In this document: positions 37,536-53,735 of the stretch, in pieces
Layout: each line of letters opens with the position of its first letter
Position numbering within the stretch: position 1 is the stretch's first letter
Origin: Clostridiales bacterium Firm_04
Lineage (GTDB): Bacteria > Bacillota > Clostridia > Oscillospirales > Ruminococcaceae
Assembly (NCBI GenBank): GCA_001603005.1
Contig: LVAJ01000008.1
Span: forward strand, 1 to 64,000
Direction of reading: 5' to 3'
Length of the DNA: 64,000 nt
Notes under the pieces: model-generated
What the model saw: only the letters and a program-made list of their open reading frames with translations
Databases searched by the model: none
What the model was told of the DNA's origin: nothing
Program-made: the position numbers and the translations under genes

Positions 37536-37561
37536 TCGCCTGATAAAGCAGCAGCAATCGG

Positions 37562-37633
37562 TATCGCTGCGCGATGATCTGAAATGGGACGCCGCCCCAA
37601 ACCCTGCTGGGGGCATAACCCCCAGAACCTATC
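37562..37633 (-). repeat. Structured intergenic repeat, copy A (after rubrerythrin)
   Basis: Reading from the rubrerythrin stop: small hairpin ATCGC/GCGAT, then GAAATGGGACG...CCCCAAACC (second hairpin), then CTGGGGG/CCCCCAG (third hairpin, loop of five), then AACCTATCAT. Matches copies B-E in order and spacing of hairpins and in the linker blocks, while the third stem has its own sequence. Confidence 0.7.
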
Positions 37634-37645
37634 ATAGAATGAAAA

Positions 37646-37676
37646 TGCCCCGAAACGAATTTGACGCTTCGGGGCA
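37646..37676 (-). terminator. Hairpin terminator between repeats A and B
   Basis: TGCCCCGAA (37646-37654) pairs with TTCGGGGCA (37668-37676). On the minus strand it is followed by TTTTCATTC, so it serves htrA best; rubrerythrin transcripts may use it as well. Related hairpins follow dnaJ and pectate lyase. Confidence 0.7.
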
Positions 37677-37687
37677 AATTCTATGTC

Positions 37688-37763
37688 ATAACGGGATTCC
37701 AAAGGGATAGATCCCTTTGGTCAGGTTTGGGCTGAGAGCCCATTCAGAATCATCGCGCAGCAA
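37688..37763 (+). repeat. Structured intergenic repeat, copy B (after htrA)
   Basis: ATAACGGGATTC, hairpin CCAAAGGGAT/ATCCCTTTGG, GGTTTGGGC...GCCCATTCAGAATC, then the ATCGCGCAGC end close to the htrA stop. Opposite in orientation to copy A, so the two form a large inverted pair between convergent genes. Confidence 0.75.
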
Positions 37764-37767
37764 TACC

Positions 37768-39267
37768 TCAATATTCTCCGGACTGATCCTCGATAAGCGT
37801 GAAGTCGATCTCGAATGTCTTGAGGGTACCGTCATCCTGTACGCGTCCGCAGCGGCAGTGCACCGAATCGCCGCCGACCAGCCCGCTGATCGCCTGATTG
37901 ATGCTGTCGTAGTCACTGACCTCGGTGCCGTTCATGGTCAGGATCCAGTCGCCGTCTTCCATGACGGTGTTTTTCAGATCGGAGTCCTGCGAGATTGACA
38001 CGACCTGAATGCCGTGACCGTCGAGCTCCTTCGGGAGCGTGACCTTATCCTTTTCGGCCTCGGCATGCGCGTTGACATTGTCGAGGAACTGGATGCCGAT
38101 GCGGACTCTGCCGCTGACATAGCCCTTTTCCATGAGCTCCTGAATGATCGGCAGCGCCTGATTGATCGTGATCGCGAAGCCGAGTCCCTCGTAGGAGCCG
38201 CCGAGAATGAAACTGCTGCCGTATTTTGAGGACGTAATGCCGATGACTTTGCCGTACATATCGACGAGCGCGCCGCCGGAATTGCCGGGGCTGATCGCCG
38301 CATCGGTCTGGAAGCAGTCCATTTCAAAATTCGTGGATTTTGCGCGCACCTTGCGGTTCATGCCGGAGATGATGCCGGTCGTGATCGAGCCGCTCAGTCC
38401 GGCGGGATTGCCCAGCGCACAGACTTCTTCGCCAAGATGTACGTCGTCGGAATTGCCGAGCACGGCGGGTTTCAGCTTGCCGGCAGAGATTTTCAGCACG
38501 GCGAGGTCGGTCTTGGTATCGTGCCCGACCAGCACCGCATTGTACTCCACATCGCTCTGCGAATCGCCGAACAGCTTGACCGAGTAGCGCGAAGTGTTTT
38601 CCACGACATGCGCATTCGTCGCGATATAGCCGTCCTCGGAGAGAATGATGCCGGAGCCGGTGCCGCTCATTTTGCCGTCTGCATAGGTATAGATTTCGAC
38701 AATGCTCGGCATGACGGTTTCGGCAATGCCGGCAAAGGTATATTTTCCGTTTTCATCGACTGCCGTATCGGGTGTTTCGCTGCGCTTTTGCTGTACGAGC
38801 TCTACGCGGACGATGTTGCCTGCGCGGTAGCCGCCGGATGTGGTACCGTTTTTGATATCCCAGATGACGCAGAACACCGCAAATCCCAGCACGGCGAGCA
38901 CAAGCAGCGTCAGCATCAGGTAGAGGAAGATATGCCGTTTCGGCTGCTCCGGCAGCGCGGGACCGGCTTCCGCAGCGCCCGCGGTCTGCAATGCAGGCTT
39001 CGGCGCGGCAGCTTCTGCGAACAGATCCGGCAGCGCAGGTGCAGGCTCCGGCATCTGCTGCGGCGCGGCTTTCGGTTCCGGATGATCTTCCGCCGGATTT
39101 ACCGTATTTGCTGTATTTTTCGTATCCGCTGCATCGGGTATCCCCGTCTGATCGGGGCGCTCCGGCGCATCCGGCTGCTCCGGCAGAACCTGTTCCTGCG
39201 CCGGAAGCGGATCGGCAGGCGTCTGCACCGGATCGCCGAGCAGTGCTTTCAGTTCTTCATCCGTCAT
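37768..39267 (-). CDS. htrA: HtrA/DegP-family membrane-anchored serine protease
   Basis: Envelope quality-control protease. 499 residues: a long Pro/Ala/Glu-rich cytoplasmic tail (1-110), one membrane helix (about 111-136), a trypsin-like domain with triad His220 (ATNAHVV), Asp254 (TKTDLAVL) and Ser330 (SPGNSGGALV), and a PDZ domain (about 400-499, GHGIQVVSISQDS). The start overlaps the histidine-kinase stop (ATGA) after GGAGGT, so HtrA is made together with the two-component system. Confidence 0.93.
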   Translation of the reverse strand: MTDEELKALLGDPVQTPADPLPAQEQVLPEQPDAPERPDQTGIPDAADTKNTANTVNPAEDHPEPKAAPQQMPEPAPALPDLFAEAAAPKPALQTAGAAEAGPALPEQPKRHIFLYLMLTLLVLAVLGFAVFCVIWDIKNGTTSGGYRAGNIVRVELVQQKRSETPDTAVDENGKYTFAGIAETVMPSIVEIYTYADGKMSGTGSGIILSEDGYIATNAHVVENTSRYSVKLFGDSQSDVEYNAVLVGHDTKTDLAVLKISAGKLKPAVLGNSDDVHLGEEVCALGNPAGLSGSITTGIISGMNRKVRAKSTNFEMDCFQTDAAISPGNSGGALVDMYGKVIGITSSKYGSSFILGGSYEGLGFAITINQALPIIQELMEKGYVSGRVRIGIQFLDNVNAHAEAEKDKVTLPKELDGHGIQVVSISQDSDLKNTVMEDGDWILTMNGTEVSDYDSINQAISGLVGGDSVHCRCGRVQDDGTLKTFEIDFTLIEDQSGEY

Positions 39268-40718
39268 GCAGTACCTCCGTTCGGTCGTTTTTCGTCGATC
39301 CGCTGATAGCGCGGCAGCGTCACGATAAATTCCGTGTACTCATTCTTGACGCTCTTGACCGTGACGAGTCCGCCGTGCAGCGCGATGATGCGGCTGACGA
39401 TGGACAGTCCCAGACCGACGCCCGTGGTATCCTTTCCGCGGGATTCATCGGTTTTGTAGAAGCGGTCGAACACGCGGGAGATCTCCTCCTCGGTCAGTCC
39501 CTCGCCGGTGTTGCGCAGATGCACATGCACCTGCTCGTCCTCGGATTCGACAGCAAAGGCGAGCGTGCCGTGCTTGTTGACGAATTTGATCGCGTTTTCG
39601 GTCAGGTTATAGAACACCTGCTGCACGAGATCCTTGTCCACAACGGCGATCGCGCGCGGGCACTCGTCGAGTCCCTCGACATAGAGCTCCTTCTGATTGA
39701 TCTTATTCTCGAACAGAAGGATCGTTTTGATCAGCAGATGCGTGATATCCGCGCGTTCAAAGCGCGGCGCCATCGTGCCTTCCTCAAAGCGGGAGATATT
39801 CAGCATGGTATGCACAAGCCGCGACATGCGATCCACTTCGGAAGAAACGATCCGCAGATATTTTTTCTCCTCATTGGGCGGAATGGTGCCGTCGAGGATG
39901 CCGTCCACGAAGCCGCCGATGCTTGTAATCGGCGTTTTGAGCTCATGCGAGACATCCGAGACAAAGCGCTTGCGGCTGCGTTCATTGCGGTCAATGAAGT
40001 CCGCCATGCGGTTCATGGTCGTGGTGAGCTGATCCATTTCCGGATCACCGGTCTGCTGAAGCCGCTGCGAAAAATCGCCCTTTGCGTAGGCTTCGGCAGC
40101 CTTTGTGACCTGCGAGACCGGGCTCAGCACGCGCGAGGTATTCAGATAGAAGATCGCAGCGCTGCCTGTTCCGATCAGAATGAGCGAAACGGCAAGCAGC
40201 GTCACGAGCTTTGAGGAGAAGTCGCTCAGATAGCCGACCGGCACCAGCAGCATCAGAAAATATGTGCGGCTGTCCTCATCCGAATCGCCTGCCTGTGCGA
40301 TGCGCTCCACCCATGTTGCCGTTGCTTCTGTGAAATTTCCCGTCGGCCCGCCGACCTGATAATACGGCTCATTGAGCGCCTTGCGCCGGACAGCAGGGGA
40401 GAGCGGGATCTCTGTCACGTTGGAATCCCCGCGCACCAGACATTCGCCTTTGTCATCGAAAATATAGCAGTCCACATTTTCGATCTTCGAGAAATTGGAT
40501 ATCTGATCTTCGAGTTCCTTTGCCGGCAGCGGATCCTTTTGAATGTTCTCTTTGATCATTGAGGTCAGCACCTTTGCGGTCGTGTTGACCTGTTCCTGCG
40601 CTTCTTTCTTGTGCATCCGGTTTGCATAGGACATGACGAGCAGTCCGCTCAGGGAGCATGCAAACAGCAGGACGACCGTGCACAGATAGAAGATGCGGCT
40701 GTAAATACTGTTCAGCAT
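39264..40718 (-). CDS. PhoR-like sensor histidine kinase
   Basis: 484 residues: membrane helix 1 (about 8-30), extracytoplasmic domain (about 35-168), helix 2 (about 170-193), HAMP, HisKA with His258 in DVSHELKTPI, and HATPase with N-box NAIKFVNKH and G-boxes DTTGVGLGLSI. It follows the response regulator by 3 bases and overlaps htrA. Architecture is like PhoR/WalK-type envelope sensors; the signal is not known. Confidence 0.92.
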   Translation of the reverse strand: MLNSIYSRIFYLCTVVLLFACSLSGLLVMSYANRMHKKEAQEQVNTTAKVLTSMIKENIQKDPLPAKELEDQISNFSKIENVDCYIFDDKGECLVRGDSNVTEIPLSPAVRRKALNEPYYQVGGPTGNFTEATATWVERIAQAGDSDEDSRTYFLMLLVPVGYLSDFSSKLVTLLAVSLILIGTGSAAIFYLNTSRVLSPVSQVTKAAEAYAKGDFSQRLQQTGDPEMDQLTTTMNRMADFIDRNERSRKRFVSDVSHELKTPITSIGGFVDGILDGTIPPNEEKKYLRIVSSEVDRMSRLVHTMLNISRFEEGTMAPRFERADITHLLIKTILLFENKINQKELYVEGLDECPRAIAVVDKDLVQQVFYNLTENAIKFVNKHGTLAFAVESEDEQVHVHLRNTGEGLTEEEISRVFDRFYKTDESRGKDTTGVGLGLSIVSRIIALHGGLVTVKSVKNEYTEFIVTLPRYQRIDEKRPNGGTA

Positions 40719-40721
40719 CGC

Positions 40722-41429
40722 TTATTCCGCTTCATCCGGCACGGCGAATTTATAGCCCACGCCCCAGACGGTGCGCAGCTCCCATTTATCGGAGACGCCT
40801 TCGAGTTTTTCGCGCAGACGCTTGATATGCACGTCGATCGTGCGGGAGTCGCCGTAATATTCAAAGCCCCAGACCTCATCGAGCAGCTGGTCGCGCGTAT
40901 AGACGTGGTTCGGGTTCGAGGCGAGGCAGTAGAGCAGTTCGAGCTCCTTCGGCGGTGTCTCGATGACCTTGCCGTTGACGCGCAGCACATAGCCGTCCAT
41001 ATCGACGGTCAGCTTGTCATAATCGACTCTGCCGCGGTGTGCGCTCGGCTCCGGCGCAGCCTGTCCGGTTTTGCGCGTCCGTGCGCGGATGCGTGCGAGC
41101 AGCTTGGTCTTGTCGATCGGCTTGGTGATATAGTCCTCTGCGCCGAGGTCGAGACCGAGCGCCTCATCGTTCGGCTCCGCCTTTGCGGTGACGAGGATGA
41201 CGGGCACATTGGATTTCTTCTGGATCTCGCGCATGACGGTATAGCCGTTCATGCCGGGCATCATGACGTCGAGCAGCACCAGATCGGGATGCATCGCCGC
41301 AAATTTCGCGAGCGCCTCCTCGCCGTCATTGGCAGTGATCGCCGTATAGCCCTCCTTGACCAGAATTGTACGCAGTACCTCACAAATATTCGGCTCATCG
41401 TCAACGATGAGAATTTTTTCCATTGCCAT
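40722..41429 (-). CDS. OmpR/PhoB-family response regulator
   Basis: 235 residues: receiver domain with Asp54 (LVLLDVMMPG), the acidic pair in ILIVDDEP and Lys in VTAKAEP, then a winged-helix DNA-binding domain (about 130-230, with PKELELLYCLASNPNHVYTRDQLL as recognition core). AAGGAGGTC precedes the ATG. The three repeats at 41498-41526 in its promoter are probably its own binding sites. Confidence 0.93.
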   Translation of the reverse strand: MAMEKILIVDDEPNICEVLRTILVKEGYTAITANDGEEALAKFAAMHPDLVLLDVMMPGMNGYTVMREIQKKSNVPVILVTAKAEPNDEALGLDLGAEDYITKPIDKTKLLARIRARTRKTGQAAPEPSAHRGRVDYDKLTVDMDGYVLRVNGKVIETPPKELELLYCLASNPNHVYTRDQLLDEVWGFEYYGDSRTIDVHIKRLREKLEGVSDKWELRTVWGVGYKFAVPDEAE

Positions 41430-41472
41430 TTGTATGACCTCCTTTTAGAATGGGTATAGTTATACAAAATAA

Positions 41473-41526
41473 AGTATACTATATTTCGGATTCATACATA
41501 TGAATGTTCTATGAACAAACTGTGAA
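41473..41526 (-). promoter_or_regulatory. Autoregulatory promoter with three 11-bp-phased Pho-box-like repeats
   Basis: On the minus strand the direct repeats TTCACAG (41520-41526), TTCATAG (41509-41515) and TTCATAT (41498-41504) recur every 11 bp, one helical turn. The last is 19 bp upstream of the -10 box TATACT (41473-41478), where a -35 box should be. This is the layout of PhoB/PhoP-activated promoters with no good -35. Confidence 0.75.
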
Positions 41527-41584
41527 TATTTTGCAAAATCGCAGAAAATCCGCGATTTTACTTGCATTTTGTGTTCTGAAAAGC

Positions 41585-41614
41585 AAACAGGCGGACATTT
41601 CTGCCCGCCTGTTT
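41585..41614 (-). terminator. Rho-independent terminator after the GH10 xylanase gene
   Basis: AAACAGGCGG (41585-41594) pairs with CCGCCTGTTT (41605-41614); on the minus strand GCTTTTC follows. It lies 17 bases past the xylanase stop. Confidence 0.8.
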
Positions 41615-41630
41615 TGGGGATATCAGATTG

Positions 41631-43769
41631 TCAGATGATGCGCGCGATCATTTTGAGGATCGCTGTGATATCATCCGTATCGGTCTGACCGTTGCCGTCG
41701 AAATCGGCGTTTGCGATTCCCTGATCGGAGATGACCAGAGACCTGTCCGAATTGACGAACCGCGCGATCATGACCGCGTCGGAGACATCGACTGCGCCGT
41801 CGCAGTTTGCATCGCCGGTTTTCGGTGCCGGAACAGTTCCGGTGCCGGTCGTCACATCGGAAGCTGTTGTCTTGGTAACATCCGCTGCGATATCAGCCGG
41901 CGACGGGATCTCATCCGCCAGCGCGATCACATCATAGTATGCCGGCAGCGGTCGATAGCCCTGATCTTTTCCAAGATATCGGAACAGCTCTGTTTCGGGA
42001 TCAGCATCCCATGCAGTGATGCCGGTTGTCGTGTAGAATGACACGCTGGAAATGAAATCTGCATTTGTCATCGCTGCTTTGAAGATCTCTTTCCAAAGAC
42101 GGCGACGCTGTGCGTCTGTCCCTTGATATCCTTTGATAATATCCAGCTCGGTGATCTCCACATCCAGACCGAGCGCGTGGAATTGCTTGAGTGCGCTTTC
42201 AAAGAGTTCCGAATCCGGATAGCTTGTCGCGAGATGCGCCTGCATGCCGATGCCGTCGATCAGATCCTCTTTCATAAGCTGCTTGGCTAGATTTACAAGC
42301 CCCTCGGTCTTTTCCGGAATATACTCGTTGTAGTCACTCAGAAACAGCTTGCAGTTTTCCGGTGCATATTTTCTTGCGGCGCGGAAGCCTGCCAGCACAT
42401 GCCCGATGCTGTTTTCGCCGTATACGTTCGCCCATCTGGAAATGTCGTTCGGATCGCCGGATTGTTTGCGCAGCCCGCCTTTTTCGTTTTGCAGGATCTC
42501 GTTGCAGACATCGTAGGCATAGAGATCCAGATCCGGATAATTCGTTTTCAGCTCTGCAAAGGTGTTTTTGATGAAGCTTTCGATGCGGGCATCGGCGGTT
42601 TCTGCATCGCAGTATGTCTGACCGTCGCGGAACAGGATATCCGGCGTCTGACTGTACCAGACGAAGCAGTGTCCGCGGACGCCGATGCCGTTTTCCTCTG
42701 CAAATTTCAGAATATTACTTGCACCGTTCAGATTCACCGTCACATCGGTGCCGTTGACCTCCTGAATGATTGCCTCCGGCTTCATTTCGTTTTCCGCAGT
42801 CAGGGAATTGAAGTTTTTCAGCACAAATTCCTGCGTTTTTTCATTCGTGATCTCATAGGCGTTGATTCCGGCGCCGATCCGGAAATACGGTCCCATGATA
42901 TCCTTGAGCCCGTCGCCGTTCGGGTTATAGGTGTAATTTTTGTTCTGATGCGCACGGAACGGCTGACCGTCCTGCACGGTCTTGTAGGGCACGGTTTTGT
43001 TTTCGATCGGCAGAATATGGGTGCCGTAGAGTTGATTCTTCATGATTTTCAGGCTCGCGGCTGCGTCAGCGCCGTATCCTTCTGCAAACAGCTGCACGCC
43101 CGTCACCAGATCCTTTGTATCCAGTCCGAGCTTTTCCCATGCAGTAATATGATTGGAAATGCTGATCGTTCCTTCGTTCAGACCTTCTTCCGGTTTCACG
43201 TTCCGGACACTCCAGTAGATGTCGATCGGCTCCGGATCTTTGTCCGCCTGATCTGTGCCGGATTCAGAAAAACCGTACATCCCGTACTGCTTCTCGGTGT
43301 GGAAAACTTTATATTCGATGCCGTCTGTGAGAAGCGTGCTTGGGGATGAGATGCTGGTCGGTTTCCATGTGCCCCACTGTTCCACGATAAAGCAAACCTG
43401 CTTTTTTGAGCTGCTCGTAAGCTGCACGCCGAAAAATGAACGTCCGCTCAGCTTCACCGCGCCCGAATAGGAATAATCCACGGATTTCCAGCTGCTGAAC
43501 GGACTGTATCCTGCCCGGCTGATGTCCCTGCCGGCGGAGATCCGCGCAGCTTCGACGTTTTCAAAGCCGCCGGAAAAGCTGCCGTCGTCGTTGAGCGAGT
43601 ACGCGCAGAATGCGTCGTCCTCAGCGCCCTCGACCGGATCATAAACCGCGTCATAGACATAACCGTTCGCTGTGTCGTGCTTTGTAACCGTTTCCGCAGA
43701 AACCGTCATCGGTATGCTGCCTGCCGCGATCGCGCCTGCACTGATGAGTGCCAGCAGTTTTCGTTTCAT
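41631..43769 (-). CDS. Secreted GH10 xylanase with inactive GH11-like domain and dockerin
   Basis: Endo-1,4-beta-xylanase. 712 residues: signal peptide (1-25); a GH11-like jelly roll (about 30-245) with VCFIVEQWGTWKP, IYWSVRNVKP and FAEGYG; a GH10 barrel (about 270-615) with acid/base Glu424 (YDVCNE) and nucleophile Glu541 (EITELD); a Thr-rich linker; a type I dockerin (651-712). In the GH11-like part the acid/base Glu is kept (Glu230) but the nucleophile position is Val125, so that domain should not hydrolyse and may act as a xylan-binding module. AAAGGAGG precedes ATG 43769. Confidence 0.92.
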   Translation of the reverse strand: MKRKLLALISAGAIAAGSIPMTVSAETVTKHDTANGYVYDAVYDPVEGAEDDAFCAYSLNDDGSFSGGFENVEAARISAGRDISRAGYSPFSSWKSVDYSYSGAVKLSGRSFFGVQLTSSSKKQVCFIVEQWGTWKPTSISSPSTLLTDGIEYKVFHTEKQYGMYGFSESGTDQADKDPEPIDIYWSVRNVKPEEGLNEGTISISNHITAWEKLGLDTKDLVTGVQLFAEGYGADAAASLKIMKNQLYGTHILPIENKTVPYKTVQDGQPFRAHQNKNYTYNPNGDGLKDIMGPYFRIGAGINAYEITNEKTQEFVLKNFNSLTAENEMKPEAIIQEVNGTDVTVNLNGASNILKFAEENGIGVRGHCFVWYSQTPDILFRDGQTYCDAETADARIESFIKNTFAELKTNYPDLDLYAYDVCNEILQNEKGGLRKQSGDPNDISRWANVYGENSIGHVLAGFRAARKYAPENCKLFLSDYNEYIPEKTEGLVNLAKQLMKEDLIDGIGMQAHLATSYPDSELFESALKQFHALGLDVEITELDIIKGYQGTDAQRRRLWKEIFKAAMTNADFISSVSFYTTTGITAWDADPETELFRYLGKDQGYRPLPAYYDVIALADEIPSPADIAADVTKTTASDVTTGTGTVPAPKTGDANCDGAVDVSDAVMIARFVNSDRSLVISDQGIANADFDGNGQTDTDDITAILKMIARII

Positions 43770-43843
43770 GATGTAAACCTCCTTTGATGCTTCATTCCTG
43801 TTGATGTGAAATGTCCTTACCGGATACACCGGTCCCCGTAACC

Positions 43844-43872
43844 ATTATACGAAAGAAAAGCCGGAATGTCAA
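43844..43872 (-). promoter_or_regulatory. SigA-type promoter of the GH10 xylanase
   Basis: On the minus strand TTGACA (43867-43872), a 17-bp spacer and TATAAT (43844-43849). The upstream GH11 gene ends in its own terminator, so this promoter is needed. Confidence 0.85.
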
Positions 43873-43900
43873 TAGAACATGGGAAAATTCATAAATACAT

Positions 43901-43939
43901 GCACAAAAAAGCTGCACAGCGCGCGGCTGCACAGCTTTT
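43901..43939 (-). terminator. Terminator after the GH11 xylanase gene
   Basis: AAAAGCTG (43907-43914) pairs with CAGCTTTT (43932-43939), continued after a two-base mismatch by CAGC/GCTG. On the minus strand it runs into TTTTTTGTGC. Confidence 0.75.
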
Positions 43940-43947
43940 GTATTCAT

Positions 43948-45270
43948 TCAGTCAGCCCGTTCTGCGCCGGAAACTGTATCGACATAGAAATCTGTCAGGC
44001 TGTCCGGAGATTCCACATAAAGCTGTAGATTTTCCGCGCCTTCCGGAATCATATATGCGAGATTTTCGAGCGTGATCCATTCGCCGCTCGGTGCCTGCGC
44101 AAGCGCAATCTCGTCATACTTTTCGCCGTCCATGTTGTATTGCAGCGTCATCTTCATCTGGACTTCCGCGCCGCTCTCCTGCATGACCTGCGCCTTGAAG
44201 TGATAGCACTCGCCGGGCTGATAGACCGCGCTGTCGAGCATGACGGTCGCGCCGTTCCAGTTGTCGGTTCTGCCGCTGACGAACAGCGATTGCGAACCCT
44301 CTGCGGCATGCTCCTTGTCCACGGTGACGAGTGAGCCGCCGCGCGGGATCCAGCCCTCTGCGCCGGATTCAAAGCTTGTCTCAAAGAAGCCTGCTTCGGA
44401 CGGCGAATCATCGTGATTCGCCTCTGCTTCTTCAAGCTTTTTGATCGCTTCCTCGTCAACGGTCACTTCGATGTCATCGGCTTCCTTGTAGGTGCCGTCG
44501 ATGTGCAGATCATTCTTGTAGACCGTTGCCTTGCCCTGCGACTGATAGCCCTCGATCGTCAGCGCGACCTCATACATTTTGCCGAGTTCAAGACCGCATT
44601 TTTTCCACGCATCGAAATGCTTGGAAACGGAGATCGTGCCTTCGAGTTTTGTGCCGTCGCCCTGCGGCTTGACCTGCCGGACGCTCCAGTACTGGTCAAA
44701 GGTCTGGATATCGTCGATCGACGGCTGCTCATAGCGCGTGGTTTTGTAGATATCGTAGGTCGCGCCGTCCACGGTGACGGTACCGATCGAAAACGGTGCC
44801 CCGGGCGGTCTCCACGAGCCCCACGATTCGACGATATAATATTCGATCAGCGGCTCTCTGGTCCAGCCGTAGACGCACATATAGGAATTGCCGTCCGGCT
44901 GATAGTCCACGCCGTAATCCACGGAGATATTGCCCATTTCGGGATAGGTTTTCGTGCAGTCAAACTTCTGACCGCGGCGGAACAGTGCATTGTTGATCTC
45001 GCTCCATTCGCAGGAGAATGTGCCCCCGCCCGGTTCAACGCGGAACTCGGTGGTACCCTCATCCTTCCAGAGCTCATAGTCATAGCCGTCAGCGGTGCCG
45101 GTGATGTTTTCGGTGAAGATCTGTGTTTCGCCGGCAGGCTCGGACTGCTGCTGCGACGGGGTGTCGGAGCCGGCTGGTTCCGATGTCTGCGCGCCGCATC
45201 CTGCCGCTGTTGTCATCAGGCAGAGTGCCGCAGTGACAGCTGCAAGCCGTCTGATTTTGGTGTTGCCCAT
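43948..45270 (-). CDS. GH11 xylanase lipoprotein with C-terminal CBM
   Basis: 440 residues. Lipoprotein signal ([10 protein letters not shown], Cys25), short acidic linker, GH11 catalytic domain (about 60-260) with nucleophile Glu143 ([17 protein letters not shown]) and acid/base Glu240 (TIEGYQSQG), and [10 protein letters not shown]. The C-terminal domain (about 290-440, [15 protein letters not shown]) looks like CBM22/CBM4_9 and should bind xylan. No dockerin, so it is held on the cell surface by lipid. ATG 45270 lies about 10 bases after GAGG; ATG 45279 is the alternative. Confidence 0.92.
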
Positions 45271-45322
45271 TGATTGCATTGCCTCGCTTTCGCATTTTTT
45301 GCCCGCACGGGGCTGTAATTTG

Positions 45323-45350
45323 ATTGTACCATAATCGGAAAAAAATACAA
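45323..45350 (-). promoter_or_regulatory. SigA-type promoter of the GH11 xylanase
   Basis: On the minus strand TTGTAT (45345-45350), a 16-bp spacer and TACAAT (45323-45328). Confidence 0.65.
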
Positions 45351-45406
45351 GTTGTTTGTTGCGATTGCCTTGTCGTTTTTTGCTTTTTCCGGCAGGATGC
45401 AAAAAT

Positions 45407-45438
45407 GCCGGATCCCTGACAGCGTGCAGGGATCCGGC
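45407..45438 (-). terminator. Rho-independent terminator after the YesL-like gene
   Basis: GCCGGATCCCTG (45407-45418) pairs perfectly with CAGGGATCCGGC (45427-45438). On the minus strand ATTTTTGC follows. Confidence 0.88.
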
Positions 45439-45470
45439 GCTTTCGATTCAGTTTTGTATTTTGCAGCGGT

Positions 45471-46379: not shown

Positions 46380-46409
46380 GTTTTTACACTCCTTTTCGGT
46401 TATCGCGCA

Positions 46410-47051: not shown

Positions 47052-47097
47052 GTGCATCCCTCCGCAATACTCTATGCGGAAAGCATGCAGCATATGC

Positions 47098-47922
47098 TTA
47101 TTTTTTGCTGCGCTCTGCACCTGCGAGCTCATAGGCGCGCTGGGTGCATGCATTGCAGCAGGCATCGACGGTATCGGTCAGATTGCCGCGATAGAGCTGA
47201 TCGAGTCCGGCAAGCGTGGTGCCGCCCGGAGAGGATACCATTTTAATGAGCTCGTCGATCGAATAACCGGAATCGGTCATCATTTTTGCAGAGCCGATCA
47301 TTGCCTGCGCGAACAGACGCAGTGCTGCGCCGTCATCGAGCCCCTCGGATTTCGCGTAATCGAGAAATCCCTTTGCATAGAGATAGAGGAATGCCGGACT
47401 GGAACTGTTCACCGCGATGATCTCGCGCATTTTGCTTTCGGGGATCTCCTCTGCGATGCCGCAGGTTGCGAACATCTGCATTGCGAGCGCAAATTCCGCA
47501 TCGGTGATGCCGTCGCATTTTGCAAGTGCCGTCGCGCCGAGACCGAGCATCAGCGGGGTGTTCGGCATGCAGAGGATGATGCGCGCATCCGCGATCGTAT
47601 GCGAGCGGATAAATTCCGCGGAAATGCCCGCGCAGATCGAGATGACGACCTGCTCTCTGCGCAGTGTCAGACCGTCGAGCACGCCGCCGAGCACCTGCGG
47701 CTTGACCGCAAGCACGAGAAAATCGGCAGCATCGGCGAGCGCCTGTGCGCTTTCGCACGGGACGACACCGGCATCGTCAGCGAGGCGGCTGAGCTTCTCG
47801 CTGTCGGTATCGAATGCGAGGGTTTTTGCGATCTCGCCGTTTTTGCAGAGTTCGGAAGCGGCGATGCCGCGCATCATTGCGGAGCCCATATTGCCCGCGC
47901 CTAAAAATCCGAGGGTGATCAT
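47098..47922 (-). CDS. proC: Pyrroline-5-carboxylate reductase
   Basis: Last step of proline synthesis: reduces pyrroline-5-carboxylate with NAD(P)H. 274 residues with the Rossmann start ITLGFLGAGNMGSAMMRGI, VLAVKPQVL, the middle RIILCMPNTPLMLGLGATAL and the C-terminal dimer helices holding DSGYSIDELIKMVSSPGGTTLAGL, all typical. ATG 47922 is 9 bases after AAAGG; an ATG six bases upstream is too close to that site. Confidence 0.95.
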   Translation of the reverse strand: MITLGFLGAGNMGSAMMRGIAASELCKNGEIAKTLAFDTDSEKLSRLADDAGVVPCESAQALADAADFLVLAVKPQVLGGVLDGLTLRREQVVISICAGISAEFIRSHTIADARIILCMPNTPLMLGLGATALAKCDGITDAEFALAMQMFATCGIAEEIPESKMREIIAVNSSSPAFLYLYAKGFLDYAKSEGLDDGAALRLFAQAMIGSAKMMTDSGYSIDELIKMVSSPGGTTLAGLDQLYRGNLTDTVDACCNACTQRAYELAGAERSKK

Positions 47923-47974
47923 ATTCATTTGCCTTTCTATCATCAGATTGTGGGCAGATTTCACTGCCCAGTTT

Positions 47975-48003
47975 ATTATATCACATTCATCTCAAAAAAG
48001 CAA
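47975..48003 (-). promoter_or_regulatory. SigA-type promoter of proC
   Basis: On the minus strand TTGCTT (47998-48003), a 17-bp spacer and TATAAT (47975-47980). It probably also drives the SpoIIM-like and YesL-like genes downstream. Confidence 0.8.
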
Positions 48004-48070
48004 GGCGGGCGGGGGGAGTGGGAGTGGCTGTTCAGGGATTTATTATTTGCATCCGGCGCGCACCAGTATT

Positions 48071-48212
48071 AAAGTTTTGATCCAACTTTTTCAAAAGTTG
48101 GCCCGTCGCAACGGGCGAAACTCCCCAGCGTTCTTTTAGGGGAAGATTGGGGCTTGGGGAAAGTACCCCGTAGGGCTCCCCATTCAAAATAGCATCCGCG
48201 AAGCGGATTCCT
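48071..48212 (+). repeat. Structured intergenic repeat, copy C (expanded form)
   Basis: Hairpin CCAACTTTT/AAAAGTTGG (48082-48101), an extra CCCGT/ACGGG hairpin, CTCCCC...GGGG, then GCTTGGGG...CCCC, CCCATTCAAAAT and ATCCGC/GCGGAT (48194-48208). The order of blocks matches the other copies but this one is longer. It lies between divergent genes, not after a stop codon. The 470-base gap also holds the proC and sigma promoters and an operator-like palindrome. Confidence 0.65.
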
Positions 48213-48261
48213 CTTTTTTATGACTCCCTGTTTCGACCACTCCCGCGGAGCCCCCCGCAAG

Positions 48262-48290
48262 TTGCGCTTTTTGTGATAATGTGATATAAT
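48262..48290 (+). promoter_or_regulatory. SigA-type promoter of the second sigma/sensor operon
   Basis: TTGCGC (48262-48267), a 17-bp spacer and TATAAT (48285-48290). Confidence 0.8.
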
Positions 48291-48350
48291 TTCTGTGCGG
48301 AAAAATTTTTTCCGGAAAATGTAATTTTCGATATCCGATTCCTGTCTGTC

Positions 48351-48370
48351 TTTGTGAAGCGCTTCACAAA
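48351..48370 (+). promoter_or_regulatory. 20-bp perfect palindrome in the sigma leader (LacI/CcpA-like site)
   Basis: TTTGTGAAGCGCTTCACAAA is symmetric with a central GCGC, as in LacI-family and CcpA (cre-like) sites. It sits about 55 bases after the predicted transcription start and 23 before the ATG, so binding would act as a roadblock. As RNA it would form a 10-bp stem without a loop, which argues for DNA binding. Confidence 0.65.
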
Positions 48371-48393
48371 TAATGCCGAAAGGAGGGCACAGC

Positions 48394-48948
48394 ATGGATG
48401 AACAAAACCTGATCGCACTGTATTTCGCACGCAATGAACAGGCGTCTGCCGAAACATACCGCATCTTCGGCGGCTACTGCTACACGATCGCAAACAATAT
48501 CCTCGGCTGCGAACAGGACGCAGAAGAATGCGTCAACGATGTCCTGATCCGCCTGTGGGAAAAGATCCCGCCGACCAGACCGACCAATTTTTATGCGTAT
48601 GTCGCAGCCGTCACCCGCAGCATCGCGCGGAACCGTTATTCCGCATCGCGGGCGAAAAAACGCGGCGGCGGTGAGGTCGCACTCGCGCTGGATGAACTGC
48701 TGGACTGCTCGGATGCAGATTCCGTCGAAACACAGCTCGACAGCAAGGCGCTTAGCGAGGCACTGAACGATTTTCTCGGAACGCTCAAACCGGATCACCG
48801 GAAAATCTTCGTGCAGCGATACTGGTACTTCTGCCCCATTGAAAATATCGCAGAAAACCTGAATGTCTCAAAATCCAAGGTTTCCGTTACATTGATGCGT
48901 ACCCGTACCAAGCTTCGGCATTATCTCGAAAAGGAGGGATTCTTATGA
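48394..48948 (+). CDS. ECF-type sigma-70 family RNA polymerase sigma factor (pair 2)
   Basis: 184 residues. Region 2 (about 10-80: YTIANNILGCEQDAEECVNDVLIRLWEK) and region 4 (about 120-184: LKPDHRKIFVQRYW, then a helix-turn-helix with NVSKSKVSVTLMRTRTKLR). Clearly paralogous to the sigma factor at 7718, down to the RAKKRGGGE/NAKRRGGGQ linker. AAAGGAGGG is 7 bases before the ATG. The stop overlaps the sensor gene (ATGA). Confidence 0.87.
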   Translation: MDEQNLIALYFARNEQASAETYRIFGGYCYTIANNILGCEQDAEECVNDVLIRLWEKIPPTRPTNFYAYVAAVTRSIARNRYSASRAKKRGGGEVALALDELLDCSDADSVETQLDSKALSEALNDFLGTLKPDHRKIFVQRYWYFCPIENIAENLNVSKSKVSVTLMRTRTKLRHYLEKEGFL

Positions 48949-51614
48949 AGCCGGAAGAATTGCTCGATGCAATGAAAAATATTTCACCTGACTATATTGC
49001 AGAAGCGAAACCTGTTCCCCAGACGCATACAGAGTCCCCGAATCCGAAGCGCGCTGCCGCGAACCGTACAAATGCCGGTTCCGCTGTGCTGCCTGAAGAT
49101 GCACCGCGCGGCAATGCAGCAAGGGGAAAGGATATCATCATGAAAAAACAATCAGTCATCCAGCGCGTGCTGACCGGCACCGTCGCAGCAGCAGCCTGCG
49201 CAGTGTTTGTCGGCGGCGGCTGGTTCATCGCAAAGCAGGCAAAACAGCAGCGGCTTGCCGCGGAATCCGAAATCTCCTCGGAATCAGAGGAAATCGCAGA
49301 AAGCAGCGCCGATACGGAGCAGGAGATTCCGCAGACAGAAACCAATTTCCTCGGCGGACAGGGCGAAGTCCGTGTGCTCTCGCATGCGGTGCTGAACTGG
49401 AATCTGTCCAATGCCGTCATGTACGACGATACCCGCTGGTATTTCCGCAACGGCACGTTCTATGCTGACCGCACCGATGCTCCCGCATCCACATTTACAA
49501 AGCTGCCGGAGGAGATCGCCGCGATCGGCAAAAACACGCTCTATGACGGCGAGCGGTTCTATTTCGCGGATGGCAGAAGTCTCTACACCATGGAGCAGGA
49601 CGGTACCCGCTCCGAAACGCCGTTCTTCACGCTCACCGATGAGATGCTGCATGACGGGCAGGACGGCAATGCACTCCGCTTCCACCGGATCGTCCCGATG
49701 GATGAGAACAGCTATCTCATCAGCATGGAGCAGTCCGAGGGCGTTCATGAAGCGGCTTCCGGTCAGGCAGAGGATTACCGGATCATTCAGCGGTTTGTCG
49801 CGATCCTGCATGTCAATGACGGCACAGCGGATGTGCTGGCAGAGACCGTCGGGCATGAGCATTTCCTGCCGGCAGGCGACGGCTCCGTCTTTGCGATCTC
49901 GCAGGACGGAACGCAGGATACCGGCATCATCCGCATTCAGCCGGACGGCAGCTGTGAGGATATCACAACATTCGACGGCACCGGCAATTCGGTCGATGCA
50001 TGGTCGCTGCACGGCGAGCAGCTCTATGTGCTGCTTACGTGGGATGATACGGATCCCGTACACGGCGCACCGTTCCGCAACACAAGCCGCGCTGTGATCG
50101 ACCTCAACACACACGATATTACGCAGAATGACACTGTCTGCACGTATGACAATGAGTTCTTCGTCAACCCCGACAACAACGGCACTGACTGTCTGATCTC
50201 CGCGTTCACGGACGGCGAGCAGGAGTTTGTGATCCGCACGATTCCGGTTGAGAAGGAAGGCGGCGGCAGCTACGGCGTCGCGCTGTACAGCACCGATCCG
50301 GAATGGAGCGACCTGCACGAGCTCTGCCGGTTCAGCAGAGAGGACGAAAGTCTTCCTTATGAGGTGCGATCCCGCGCGGACAGCACCCTCGGCGCATATT
50401 GCTCCTATAATGCATATGCCGATTCGCAGTATGTTGTCATGGTCATCAGCGCGCACATGTTTTCCGTCTGCGACCGCGAAACAGGCGCTGTGCAGTATTT
50501 CTATGCAGACAGTGTGCCGGAGGGCAAAATCGTGCCTGCCGATGTGCTGCATCTGGATGAATCGCGTTTCAAGGAACTGGATCCGGGCTTTACCGGCAAA
50601 AACTTCCTCGGCGGAACCGGTTCGCTGCATATCAACCGGTATGTCGGCAATTACCCCATGTATGATGATGACAATTATTATTTCGACAACTTCTATCTGC
50701 CGCGCAGCAGCAATGAGCCGCACGGATATTCCGATGAGATCAAGGAAAACTACGGATTCAGCCCGCTGCTCTATGGTCCCCACCTGTTTTCCGACGGCGA
50801 ACAGCTCTTTGTCCAGCGCGGCGAGGTGCTGAACCGGATCGACAGCAGCGGAAAGGAAACACCGTTTATCCTTCTGGAAAGCACCGGTCTGGCAGGGGAG
50901 AATCAGCGGCTGGACATCTCACGGATCCACCGCGTCGGCAATTACTATTTCGTTTCAGGATTGGTAAACCTCGAAACCGGAAGAGATGAGAATTATTACA
51001 GCTTCTGCTTCTGGACAGACAGCACCGGTAAATTCATCAGCGGCAGAAATGATTACCAGAACACGTTCTTTGATCCGAGCGACACTGAAGGCGTCTGCGA
51101 TTACATTTACATGTTCGACGACAATCAGATCACCAGAATGTCTGCACCGGAAGGCGAAGCAGAACCGCTGACCTTCAAGCTGCCCGGAAAAGAAAAGCCA
51201 CAGTATTCGCAAATGCTGATCGACGGCGAGAAGATCCTGTACCGGAACGAAAACGGCATGATCTGCGCATATGATACGGATACCGCAGAATACAAAGAAC
51301 TGCTGCATGAAGATGATATTTCGCCTGATTTCGACGATATCACCAGAAGATGGTATTTCTACGGTCAGTACATCTACTATAACACGGACGATCAGGATGC
51401 CTATACCACTTCGCTCTGCCGGTATGACCTGAACACCGGCGAAAAGGAAACGCTCCTGACGCTTGATTTTTCAGAGACTGCTGATTTCATGACATGCACC
51501 TATGATAACGTCATGGAACTCTACCTCGCAAGTCAGAATGTGCTTTACAATACGGATACGGGCGAATATGTCCCGCTCGTTTCTGACAGATTCCGCTCCA
51601 TGTACGAAGAATAA
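48945..51614 (+). CDS. Membrane-anchored putative anti-sigma/sensor with duplicated propeller-like ectodomain (pair 2)
   Basis: 889 residues. Cytoplasmic N-terminus (about 1-72) with ISPDYIAEAKP as the likely sigma contact, one membrane helix (about 75-96), then a very large extracellular part (about 125-889) made of repeated Tyr/Asp/Gly-rich strands, like a DUF5050/TolB-type beta-propeller. The ectodomain is an internal duplication: NFLGGQGEVRVLS...MYDDTRWYF (from about 126) recurs as NFLGGTGSLHIN...MYDDDNYYF (from about 553), each followed by a DG-x-(R/Q)-x-(F/Y) strand and a TPFF/TPFI element. Inferred to sense an extracellular ligand and release the sigma factor. Confidence 0.6.
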   Translation: MKPEELLDAMKNISPDYIAEAKPVPQTHTESPNPKRAAANRTNAGSAVLPEDAPRGNAARGKDIIMKKQSVIQRVLTGTVAAAACAVFVGGGWFIAKQAKQQRLAAESEISSESEEIAESSADTEQEIPQTETNFLGGQGEVRVLSHAVLNWNLSNAVMYDDTRWYFRNGTFYADRTDAPASTFTKLPEEIAAIGKNTLYDGERFYFADGRSLYTMEQDGTRSETPFFTLTDEMLHDGQDGNALRFHRIVPMDENSYLISMEQSEGVHEAASGQAEDYRIIQRFVAILHVNDGTADVLAETVGHEHFLPAGDGSVFAISQDGTQDTGIIRIQPDGSCEDITTFDGTGNSVDAWSLHGEQLYVLLTWDDTDPVHGAPFRNTSRAVIDLNTHDITQNDTVCTYDNEFFVNPDNNGTDCLISAFTDGEQEFVIRTIPVEKEGGGSYGVALYSTDPEWSDLHELCRFSREDESLPYEVRSRADSTLGAYCSYNAYADSQYVVMVISAHMFSVCDRETGAVQYFYADSVPEGKIVPADVLHLDESRFKELDPGFTGKNFLGGTGSLHINRYVGNYPMYDDDNYYFDNFYLPRSSNEPHGYSDEIKENYGFSPLLYGPHLFSDGEQLFVQRGEVLNRIDSSGKETPFILLESTGLAGENQRLDISRIHRVGNYYFVSGLVNLETGRDENYYSFCFWTDSTGKFISGRNDYQNTFFDPSDTEGVCDYIYMFDDNQITRMSAPEGEAEPLTFKLPGKEKPQYSQMLIDGEKILYRNENGMICAYDTDTAEYKELLHEDDISPDFDDITRRWYFYGQYIYYNTDDQDAYTTSLCRYDLNTGEKETLLTLDFSETADFMTCTYDNVMELYLASQNVLYNTDTGEYVPLVSDRFRSMYEE

Positions 51615-51619
51615 CAAAC

Positions 51620-51655
51620 AAAGGCGCTGATGCGAAAATCAGCGCCTTTGCTTAT
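51620..51655 (+). terminator. Rho-independent terminator after sigma/sensor pair 2
   Basis: AAAGGCGCTGAT (51620-51631) pairs with ATCAGCGCCTTT (51638-51649), then GCTTATC. Confidence 0.85.
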
Positions 51656-51668
51656 CGAAAAAAGTGTC

Positions 51669-51745
51669 TCCGACGGATTCAAAATGGGGACTCCGTCCCC
51701 AAGCCTCTGCTTAAGGGCTATTAGCCCTTAAGAATCCCATTATAT
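51669..51745 (-). repeat. Structured intergenic repeat, copy D (after the pair 2 sensor)
   Basis: Reading from the gene end: a shortened first hairpin, GGATTCAAAATGGGGAC/GTCCCC, AAGCC, hairpin TTAAGGGCTA/TAGCCCTTAA (51711-51731), GAATCCCATTATAT. Same blocks and orientation relative to the preceding gene as copies A, B and E, with a different outer stem. Confidence 0.75.
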
Positions 51746-51796
51746 ATGAAAAATGCAAATACATCTTTGATACTGTATTGGGAGCCGGGGGGGAAT

Positions 51797-52594
51797 TTAC
51801 ATTCCTGCTTCGCGCCGGAATCTTGCCAGCACATCGCGCATATCCTGCGGCAGACGCTTTTCGCCCTCTGCCGCGATGCCGTCCGGCACACCGAAAAAGG
51901 CTTCGGCAATGCTGCCGGTGATGCAGGCGATCGTGTCCGTATCGCCGCCGAGCGAGACCGCATTGCGGATCGCGTCCTCGAAGTCCGTGCTCTCCAGAAA
52001 CGCCGCAAAGACCAGCGGCATCGTCACCTGACAGGTCTCGTCATGCCGGTTCTTGGCGCGGAGCTCTGCGCAGCTGCAGGAGAGGTCATAGCCGAAGTTC
52101 TGCTCCGTGTACGTTCTGATCTCATCCATGCTGCTGCCGGTGCGCGCCATGAAGATCGCGGCGGCAGTTGCCTCTGCGCCCTTGATCCCTTCCGGATGAT
52201 TGTGCGAGACCGCAGCCGTCAGCGCTGCCATGTGCCGCGTGGTATCGAGATCGTCAAACAGCCAGCCCGCTGCCGATGCGCGCATCGCAGAGCCGTTGCC
52301 GAAGCTGCCGTTCGGCTTGGGGTTCTCCGTGAACAGCCAGCGCATAAATCTGCCGCCGTAGCCCGCATTCGGATAGCGTCTGCCCCATTTCTGCATGGAG
52401 CGGATGAGCGCCGCCGTGATCTCCGCATCCGGTTCGCCGCGCGTATCCAGCAGCGCTTCCGCAACTGCGACCGTCATCACGGAGTCGTCCGTAAATTCGG
52501 TACCCCGCCCGAACAGCGGGAAATCCTTGACCTTTCTGCCCCTGTCAAACTCATAGGGCGCGCCGATCATATCGCCTAACATTGCTCCGATCAT
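51797..52594 (-). CDS. ADP-ribosylglycohydrolase family protein
   Basis: 265 residues of the DraG/ARH fold, which removes ADP-ribose from proteins or nucleic acids. Metal-binding motifs are present: GTEFTDDSVMT near the N-terminus and SLGGDTDTIACITGSIAEA near the C-terminus; the start MIGAMLGDMIGAPYEF is typical. ATG 52594 is 8 bases after AAGGAGGG. It is alone on its transcript. The target is unknown; many homologues are encoded without a partner transferase. Confidence 0.88.
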   Translation of the reverse strand: MIGAMLGDMIGAPYEFDRGRKVKDFPLFGRGTEFTDDSVMTVAVAEALLDTRGEPDAEITAALIRSMQKWGRRYPNAGYGGRFMRWLFTENPKPNGSFGNGSAMRASAAGWLFDDLDTTRHMAALTAAVSHNHPEGIKGAEATAAAIFMARTGSSMDEIRTYTEQNFGYDLSCSCAELRAKNRHDETCQVTMPLVFAAFLESTDFEDAIRNAVSLGGDTDTIACITGSIAEAFFGVPDGIAAEGEKRLPQDMRDVLARFRREAGM

Positions 52595-52624
52595 ATCGGA
52601 TCCCTCCTTTTCTTTGATGATCTC

Positions 52625-52632
52625 ATTATACC
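52625..52632 (-). promoter_or_regulatory. Extended -10 promoter of the ADP-ribosylglycohydrolase gene
   Basis: On the minus strand TGGTATAAT (TATAAT at 52625-52630 with TG two bases upstream) is an extended -10 box. No clear -35 box, which an extended -10 can dispense with. About 30 bases from the start codon. Confidence 0.6.
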
Positions 52633-52701
52633 ACATAACCGGACGGAAATGGTCACTTCGCAGGCGACATTTTTTGCGGCAGCCCGCACGGGATCAAGGC
52701 A

Positions 52702-53037
52702 TTATTCGGCATTCTGTATTTCCAGCAAAACCGCTGCTCTTTCTTTCAAACGGATCCGGTTCTCGGCAGAGAGCGTCTGATAAATATGCAGCAGTTCGGA
52801 TTCATCCTCTGTCAGCATCTGCGCGGATTCCGTCTTTCTGCCAAGCAGATAATCGACGGAAACACCGCAGTATTCTGCCACATCCGCAAGAAAATTGATC
52901 GGCGCTTTGGTCTCGCCGCGTTCATAGCGGCTGACCTCCTGCTGCGAAATGCCGAGATGTTCGGCAAGCTCTGCCTGCGAGCACCGTGCTTTTCTTGCTC
53001 TGGTCAGATTCGGATACAGATAAAGGTGATTTTGCAT
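52702..53037 (-). CDS. XRE-family transcriptional regulator
   Basis: 111 residues: Cro/CI helix-turn-helix (SQAELAEHLGISQQEVSRYERGETKAP, about 19-45, one of the clearest in the window), then VAEYCGVSVDYLLGRKTE and a C-terminal helical tail for dimerisation. ATG 53037 is 12 bases after CAGGAG; GTG 53049 abuts that site. It faces the gene at 53182 across an AT-rich 145-base gap full of TGATGT/ACATCA half-sites and probably represses both directions, like a phage-type or toxin-module regulator. Confidence 0.88.
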   Translation of the reverse strand: MQNHLYLYPNLTRARKARCSQAELAEHLGISQQEVSRYERGETKAPINFLADVAEYCGVSVDYLLGRKTESAQMLTEDESELLHIYQTLSAENRIRLKERAAVLLEIQNAE

Positions 53038-53097
53038 AAATCCAGTCACTCCTGTTTGTTGATGTATACAAAATCATTCTACATCATATTTGCTGTA

Positions 53098-53126
53098 TTG
53101 ACAAACAATATAAATGATGTTATAAT
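53098..53126 (+). promoter_or_regulatory. SigA-type promoter of the OB-fold gene
   Basis: TTGACA (53098-53103), a 17-bp spacer and TATAAT (53121-53126), a full consensus. A TGATGT half-site (53113-53118) lies inside the spacer. Confidence 0.88.
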
Positions 53127-53130
53127 ATTA

Positions 53131-53152
53131 TTCACATCATTTCTGATGTGAA
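53131..53152 (+). promoter_or_regulatory. Inverted-repeat operator, probably for the XRE regulator
   Basis: TTCACATCA (53131-53139), TTTC, TGATGTGAA (53144-53152): 9-bp perfect arms just after the -10 box. More half-sites lie at 53060-53066 (TGATGTA) and about 53080-53086 (TACATCA), towards the XRE gene. Repeated half-sites on both sides suit cooperative binding. Confidence 0.7.
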
Positions 53153-53181
53153 TATTATTATGAAAGACTGGAGTGATTTAC

Positions 53182-53594
53182 ATGAACGAAACCTCTAAAT
53201 TGAGCCGAAAGACCATAGCGATTATTTGCTGCATTGTCTTAATAATTCTTGGTATTCCCTTTTCAATCCGTCATAAGCAGAAAAATATGATTGAAAAAAT
53301 CTACACTGCTTACATGGATAACGCGAATCAAGCTATGAAAAAATATGATGGCAAGAATATTACTTTGCTTGGCGAAGTTCGTAGTATATCGTCATCTGCT
53401 GCTGATCTGTCGATTGTGCCTATCGGAGACGAAAATTCAATTATATTTGCGAATTGCAATGTTTCTGACGAAAAAATCAGAAGCGGGTAATCAAATTAAA
53501 AAGAGGAAAAAAAGTGAAGGTCAAAGGAACCGTGCATCTGCATGAATTGGCGGCAGGTCTTTATATAGAAATTGATGTGGATCGTATTTCGTAA
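53182..53594 (+). pseudogene. tRNA_anti-like OB-fold membrane protein, frameshifted
   Basis: Frame 1 (53182-53490) encodes an N-terminal helix (TIAIICCIVLIILGIPFSI) and the start of an OB-fold of the tRNA_anti-like type (KKYDGKNITLLGEVRSI... IIFANCNVS), ending at TAA 53488-53490. The missing second half is in another frame: about 53484-53594 reads RGKKVKVKGTVHLHE... YIEIDVDRIS, the expected KxGxKVxVKGxV strand. One base change near 53475-53487, next to a run of six A, would restore one protein of about 137 residues. It may be a real break, a sequencing error or a slippage site. GGAG precedes ATG 53182. Confidence 0.7.
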
Positions 53595-53604
53595 TTTTAT
53601 AACT

Positions 53605-53637
53605 AGCCCCCGATGCCAAATCACGGCATCGGGGGCT
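53605..53637. terminator. Hairpin terminator between convergent genes
   Basis: AGCCCCCGATGCC (53605-53617) pairs perfectly with GGCATCGGGGGCT (53625-53637), 7-nt loop. The T-runs on either side are weak. It sits between repeat copy E and the OB-fold gene. Confidence 0.65.
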
Positions 53638-53649
53638 CTGTTCATATCA

Positions 53650-53735
53650 ATAATGGGATTCCAAAGGGACAAGTCCCTTTGGCGCGGTTTGGGCGCGCAG
53701 CCCATTTTCAATCCGTCCGCGAAGCGGACACATCT
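53650..53735 (+). repeat. Structured intergenic repeat, copy E (after the oxidoreductase operon)
   Basis: ATAATGGGATTC, hairpin CCAAAGGGAC/GTCCCTTTGG (53661-53682), GGTTTGGGC...GCCCATTTTCAATC, hairpin GTCCGC/GCGGAC (53715-53729). It ends two bases before the stop codon of the gamma subunit gene. The clearest copy and a good model for the family. Confidence 0.8.

Follow-up and report, generated by a model that had tools for sequence, protein, structure and literature searches.

The 64,000-nucleotide (nt) stretch of Clostridiales bacterium Firm_04 studied here (from contig LVAJ01000008.1; hereafter the window) carries four copies of a repeat of about 80 nt that contains three hairpins in a fixed order, which we call the tail, middle and outer hairpins. 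These copies belong to a real, abundant, structured and polar family, similar in its placement to repetitive extragenic palindromes (REPs). An earlier reading of the letters alone, hereafter the sequence-only reading, had proposed a repeat with five copies in the window. Four of them (copies 1, 2, 4 and 5) do form one three-hairpin family; they had been located correctly, and all four match a covariance model of the family, whereas copy 3 comes from another one. The assembly that contains the window, referred to below as the own genome, comprises 3.54 Mb in 53 contigs and is 88.6% complete.

In gene sense, an element begins with the tail hairpin, continues with the middle hairpin and closes with the hairpin that the sequence-only reading had named 'outer'; the '+' strand of that reading is antisense to the gene. 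Tails are of type A (GGTATCGC-TTC-GCGAT), of type B (GTGTC-TCC-GAC) or of a long form (GTCCGC-TTC-GCGGAC). After the tail come GATT..AAT, the middle hairpin TGGGC..GCCCA and AAACC with a few more bases, then the outer hairpin CCAAAGGGAT..ATCCCTTTGG (and variants), ending in AATCCCATT. The linkers said to be common to all copies are present in copies 1, 2, 4 and 5, and the outer stem pairs in each of these four, as claimed; the CCAACTTTT/AAAAGTTGG stem of copy 3, however, is not homologous to theirs. Six loci (L022, L032, L035, L037, L040 and L235) have an extra hairpin segment (about TGAGTTTGCTTGCAAACTCATAGCGAAGCGTGC) at the same spot within the middle hairpin.

RNAalifold misregistered the middle hairpin when run on the raw MAFFT alignment, so that a 20-row core alignment with a given structure (A2) was used instead. 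It holds 20 copies from the own genome, 14 of the 34 rows of alignment A1 having been excluded for a middle hairpin of another length, and the covariance model built on it represents the middle and outer hairpins. Copies 2 and 5 are among these building rows; copies 1 and 4 are outside them.

A plain DNA search gave 41 matches in the own genome and matched 20 of 41 genomes (20 of 25 in the genus, none of 16 outside it). A genome search with a covariance model had been suggested as a check on the family, and it bore the family out: at least 77 matches were found in the own genome, where 150 of 755 candidates were scored, and 29 of 30 genus genomes were matched with 150 candidates scored per genome, the counts running from 0 (G014) to at least 134 (G004). 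In a search of 197 genomes across the order, with tighter filters and 27 candidates scored in each, 14 had a match, the own genome included; the others match more weakly, at 46.7 bits at best. Two of these order-wide matches (L272 and L275), compared by eye, have the outer hairpin and AATCCCATT in common with the family and a different middle hairpin, so the outer module may predate the genus family or have a wider distribution. In the literature searched, we recognised no description of this repeat. Copies were gathered by similarity and with the model. Loci from relatives are for the most part the top-scoring matches rather than a random draw, and the copies are not all independent, since some are orthologues of one another or occupy one gap.

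Two local accumulations were seen. Genome G006 (L144-L153) has several near-identical copies, many of them close to contig ends and some followed by a G-rich stretch (AGGGGGATGGGTAACGGAAAGGGG). At L014 (4065-4838), a tandem array of four 194-bp units, with one repeat copy each, lies between two gene starts.

Base pairing is kept while the sequence changes, as the sequence-only reading had noticed. Alignment A5, which contains 109 matches (103 distinct) from own and relatives' loci, was fitted to the model built on the 20 own copies and so leans towards its structure; in it, 97.8% of stem cells are paired, and two-sided changes occur in 9 of 15 pairs, with a total of 152 cells. With the structure slid by one to three columns, only 2 to 5 two-sided cells and 29-63% paired cells remain. 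The observed pairing values were reached by none of 500 shuffles, which ignore relatedness. These counts leave aside the tail hairpin, which is outside the model. An additional loop-linker pairing (UCA/UGA) in the middle hairpin, a candidate from A1, was dropped by eye, since many copies do not fit it.

Placement was examined on 113 distinct full-length matches (55 from the own genome, 58 from relatives). Gene boundaries were taken from a simple codon-usage caller made for this analysis, not from an annotation, and 93 copies (48 own, 45 relatives') have a called gene on both sides without gene overlap; the 20 left out have no called gene on one side or overlap a gene. In 17 of the 48 own copies and 20 of the 45 relatives' copies, no more than 15 nt separate the start of the tail from a stop codon, against 2.6 and 3.0 expected for random position and orientation within the same gaps, while the head comes that close in 1 of 48 and 0 of 45. 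The enrichment after stop codons that the sequence-only reading had suggested looking for is thus found in both sets. Where no tail was detected, its start was set at the core start minus 14 (9 of the 113 had no tail in a similar search), and L116, a relative's copy in the within-15-nt group, overlaps a called gene end by 18 nt. Elsewhere, the tail side faces a gene start, sometimes very near (15 of 55 in the own genome, 14 of 58 in relatives), and 3 of the 55 own copies extend into a called gene. One gene is preceded by such a copy in three species (L039, L050 and L114): the core of the copy lies 18-20 nt from the start codon and the GGAGG of the tail, located by eye, 9-11 nt ahead of it; this GGAGG could serve as a ribosome-binding site.

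In Escherichia coli, REPs situated no more than 15 nt from a stop are reported to stall ribosomes (PMC12306157). As the placement described above resembles that of these stop-proximal REPs, we take a REP-like action on the mRNA of the upstream gene as a working hypothesis by analogy, one that we would place somewhat short of probable.

Are copies inherited along with the genes they follow? We took 60 stretches from relatives, 20 per gene, downstream of the orthologues of three window genes, and scanned all of them with the model. For the ferredoxin oxidoreductase subunit gene, 5 of 20 relatives have a match directly past the orthologous stop (one without the usual tail and one partial); a sixth genome (G021) has its copy about 340 nt away and facing the opposite way, and a tail-like remnant was seen by eye in G003. 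For the rubrerythrin gene the count is 3 of 20, two directly past the stop and one, an inverted pair, beyond a terminator. In the peptidase set, none of the 20 relatives has a model match, and fragments were seen by eye in three. The remaining stretches of the 60 contain no model match. This alternation of presence and absence at orthologous gene ends implies that copies have been gained and lost, or that they are confined to part of the genus.

Some copies nevertheless persist at orthologous gene boundaries with compensated stems. Fourteen cross-species pairs of copies have homologous tail-side flanks; they are not independent (some form trios), and the flank matches behind two or three of them are short. 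In the 11 pairs present in the alignment, 14 stem cells show two-sided changes, 1 a one-sided change and 6 a broken pair, while 133 are the same and 11 gapped. At L035, two elements of the own genome correspond, by eye, to one fused element with a single outer hairpin in G044 (L123).

A second form of the repeat points to a mobile origin. Fourteen inverted pairs were found, copies 1 and 2 of the window included, in which two copies lie 18-56 bases apart with their tails outward; the paired form measures about 210-265 bp in clear cases. One or both ends have a pattern close to TCAG(T/C)CTGTCG..AAAG (up to two substitutions) in 9 of the 14 pairs, one of which (L053) looks spurious, and both ends have it in 3; where present, it often stands just after a terminator hairpin. 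In four pairs (L030, L033, L235 and L056), the same whole hairpin occurs as a direct repeat on both sides. The exact runs are 25, 27 and 32 bp in three of these repeats, and the fourth spans 34 bp with one mismatch (18 exact); among 182 mismatched flank combinations used as a control, the longest match was 11.

Similar ends occur at loci of IS1182-family transposases (L168 and L239). A genome search with the end pattern at two mismatches returned mostly noise (34 and 48 matches versus 24 and 17 in the control), and its 7 exact matches alone were used as leads. The search for this end brought up a gene for an IS1182-family transposase in the own genome, right next to a terminator; the transposase scores 331.6 bits with the NCBIfam IS1182 model (cut-off 270). 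An intact IS1182 element is present in G007 (425.8 bits, without stops), with the same 28-bp terminator-like hairpin on both sides, as judged by eye. Among the 30 genus genomes, 11 have an IS1182 transposase at E<=0.001 and 2 exceed the curated cut-off. The sequences of the paired form and its ends thus look like an IS1182-type miniature inverted-repeat transposable element (MITE), in part of the cases. Two arrangements were noted separately: in the right flank of L044, two IS1182-type ends enclose a single terminator-like hairpin, an arrangement that elements inserting around the hairpin might leave, and at L205 two terminator-like hairpins enclose, by eye, end-like remnants alone.

Our proposal combines a REP-like genus family, a paired form moved by IS1182 and an action in mRNA at stop codons; we judge this whole to have about an even chance of being right. 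The paired form would be a MITE that depends for its movement on an IS1182-family transposase acting in trans; this enzyme would target terminator hairpins and leave the entire hairpin duplicated. Insertion at terminators would seed copies at gene ends; single copies would arise once the outer ends and one of the terminators are lost, and would be retained where the tail hairpin abuts a stop codon. At such sites, they may work in the mRNA like E. coli REPs, by delaying ribosomes at the stop codon or by obstructing 3' exonucleases. The weakest step is how single copies end up 0-8 nt from a stop. The stronger claim that an IS1182-type MITE, by copying terminators, seeded hairpin modules that were kept as regulatory hairpins abutting stop codons (and a few start codons) is one we consider doubtful; if true, a transposon would be building a genus-wide layer of control in 3' untranslated regions (3'-UTRs).

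Several results weigh against this proposal. The IS1182-type end pattern was not found in 5 of the 14 inverted pairs, the window's own pair among them, nor in most single copies, and hairpin duplication is not seen in 10 of the 14 pairs. Across 104 copies taken together, short target duplications are no commoner than in shuffles (7 copies have a repeat of at least 7, against a mean of 3.4 and a maximum of 8 in shuffles). In the own genome, the transposase match ends at profile position 418 out of 488, and a search of the 3.1 kb on its right side did not reveal the right end of the element; judging from its sequence, this transposase looks decayed. IS1182 genes do not track copy number: the copy-rich genomes G013, G018 and G041 have no IS1182 match at E<=0.001, and G007, with its intact element, has only 5 repeat matches. 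Finally, on the gene-sense strand, stem cells contain 10 G-U and 21 A-C combinations, and thus selection on RNA is not favoured.

The nearest known systems each match the family in part. Enterobacterial REPs and bacterial interspersed mosaic elements (BIMEs) are likewise dispersed intergenic palindromes, some within 15 nt of a stop. Here, however, there are three hairpins with a fixed polarity, which sets the family apart from the usual REP architecture; no Y1 (REP-associated tyrosine, RAYT) transposase was found in the own genome, and the ends of the paired form point to IS1182. MITEs are in general short, non-coding and repeated, with terminal inverted repeats. Bacterial examples such as pneumococcal RUP and BOX resemble our family in these respects, terminal inverted repeats being present in part of the paired form, but recognisable ends are limited to that part, and single copies are oriented by gene boundaries. 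The IS1182 family has in common with our repeat its association with hairpins and terminators, and matches to its transposase occur in part of the genus. Members of this family (IS1272, TnSha1) are described as inserting at hairpins, often terminators, and IS1272 as replacing or partly deleting its target stem-loop, without target duplication (PMC4923244 and PMC5678879). The whole stem-loop is duplicated in four of our pairs and around the intact element of G007, in contrast to that account; such an outcome is drawn as a possible pathway in PMC5678879 (Fig. 13 legend, pathway b), and these cases would provide sequence evidence for it in IS1182-type elements.

The family could instead be purely selfish or neutral MITE debris, with insertion directed by structure, survival only where harmless, and pairing inherited from active master copies. 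The paired copies with IS1182-type ends and duplicated terminators would fit such an origin, as would the sporadic presence at orthologous ends and the tandem array at L014. Relationships among copies agree with it too: the nearest neighbour of a copy lies in the same genome for 53 of the 109 copies, against a mean of 28 and a maximum of 44 when shuffled. Debris of this kind, however, would leave unexplained the tail-first polarity at stops, six- to sevenfold over the random-position expectation with no such excess for the head, and the persistence of copies at the same boundary across species with 14 two-sided changes against 6 broken ones. We regard this explanation as rather unlikely.

Covariation could also arise by mutation. 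Hairpin-templated (quasi-palindrome) repair or gene conversion can keep both arms of a hairpin matched, in this case without selection. Two-sided changes in the stems far exceed one-sided standard pairs, G-U and A-C cells are few, and arms change in blocks (from CCAAAGGGAT to TTAAGGGCTA), all of which would fit such upkeep. It does not account, however, for polarity or for placement at stop codons, and we consider it rather unlikely as the source of the covariation. With many copies, empty sites and orthologous sites at hand, selection on the hairpins can be tested against mutational upkeep.

The sequence-only reading had left a choice between a structured 3'-UTR RNA and a REP- or MITE-like mobile element. 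The second half has stood up, in view of the dispersed copies, the inverted pairs with IS1182-type ends, the duplicated terminators and the presence or absence at orthologous ends. The first would make the repeat a conserved RNA selected on the gene-sense strand, for instance as an exonuclease block, processing site or termination regulator, with transposition incidental. Its position after stops, the covariation in both modelled stems and the persistence at orthologous sites speak for an RNA, but selection on RNA would favour G-U over A-C, the opposite of what the stems show, so that the pairing may be maintained on the DNA itself or through hairpin-templated repair. The copies with a gene start on their tail side also fit poorly. 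At gathering score, no Rfam family is found in the window, and at E<=1 the region 37500-37800 contains two weak microRNA-family matches and nothing else. We think a conserved 3'-UTR RNA quite unlikely.

A classical REP mobilised by a RAYT (Y1/HUH) transposase, although palindromic, intergenic and often stop-proximal like our repeat, is very improbable: PF01797 was not found in the own genome (at its 88.6% completeness), and the REP-associated transposase that the sequence-only reading had proposed to look for occurs in only 3 of the 30 genus genomes, with 48, 31 and 4 repeat matches. A REP-like system in a Ruminococcus-like lineage, with no Y1 transposase found in the own genome, may represent an independent origin of stop-proximal hairpins of the type described for E. 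coli (PMC12306157).

In the window, four copies had been said to follow stop codons closely in one orientation and near a terminator, and this description is accurate: counted by hand, the tails of copies 1, 2, 4 and 5 lie 24, 0, 49 and 5 nt past the stop of the upstream gene; copies 1 and 2 flank a terminator-like hairpin, copy 4 is behind one, and copy 5 is ahead of a hairpin judged by eye to be a terminator. Copy 1 (37560-37633, + in gene sense), whose tail hairpin GGTATCGC..GCGAT follows the rubrerythrin stop (37535), is a divergent member with the outer stem CTGGGGG/CCCCCAG (28.7 bits, E 2e-5). Copy 2 (37690-37767, - in gene sense) abuts the stop (37768) of the trypsin-like/PDZ peptidase gene and scores 85.9 bits (E 3e-21). 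Between the heads of these two lies the terminator-like hairpin GCCCCGAAGCG..CGTTTCGGGGC (37646-37676), listed on the - strand by the terminator scan; by eye, it could act both ways.

Copy 4 (51664-51741, + in gene sense) has a B-type tail (GTGTC-TCC-GAC) and the outer stem TTAAGGGCTA/TAGCCCTTAA (56.6 bits, E 4e-13). It lies past stop 51614 and behind a terminator-like hairpin at that stop (51613-51656, listed on the - strand by the scan); its left flank resembles an IS1182-type end by eye, although the end-pattern search did not match it. Copy 5 (53652-53731, - in gene sense) has the long tail hairpin GTCCGC-TTC-GCGGAC, follows the stop (53737) of the ferredoxin oxidoreductase subunit gene and scores 80.5 bits (E 1e-19). 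Downstream of it, the hairpin GCCCCCGATGCC..GGCATCGGGGGC (about 53606-53636) was judged a terminator by eye and is absent from the scan list. The scan also flags the middle hairpins of copies 4 and 5 on the antisense strand (51685-51701, -, and 53690-53704, +).

Neighbouring genes have Pfam matches to rubrerythrin, trypsin-like/PDZ peptidase, ADP-ribosylglycohydrolase, a pyruvate-ferredoxin oxidoreductase subunit, pyrroline-5-carboxylate reductase and a sigma factor; the Pfam search gave no match for a neighbouring protein of 889 amino acids. The closest relatives of one window protein come from metagenome assemblies of Oscillospiraceae, Ruminococcus and Clostridia, with goat, sheep and water buffalo among the sources, in agreement with the Ruminococcus affiliation that the sequence-only reading had assumed.

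Folding energies on the gene-sense strand (+ for copy 3) give z-scores of -1.8 to -4.9 for the five proposed copies; for four of these, the opposite strand gives -0.7 to -3.7. Copy number and covariation are stronger evidence for the repeat than folding energy.

Copy 3 (48066-48215, +; 48071-48212 in the sequence-only reading) lies between two divergent gene starts and belongs to a second, partly similar modular repeat family; with the main model, it reaches 10.6 bits (E=2, minus strand). This second family (L277-L279 in addition to copy 3) has a GGGG/CCCC hairpin and a tail hairpin in common with the main one, and 57 match pieces were found in the own genome with 40 of 70 candidates scored, many elements giving two pieces. 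A stretch similar to this second family occurs in G023 (L183), after a terminator-like hairpin and a CAGCTTGTCGGGAAA end.

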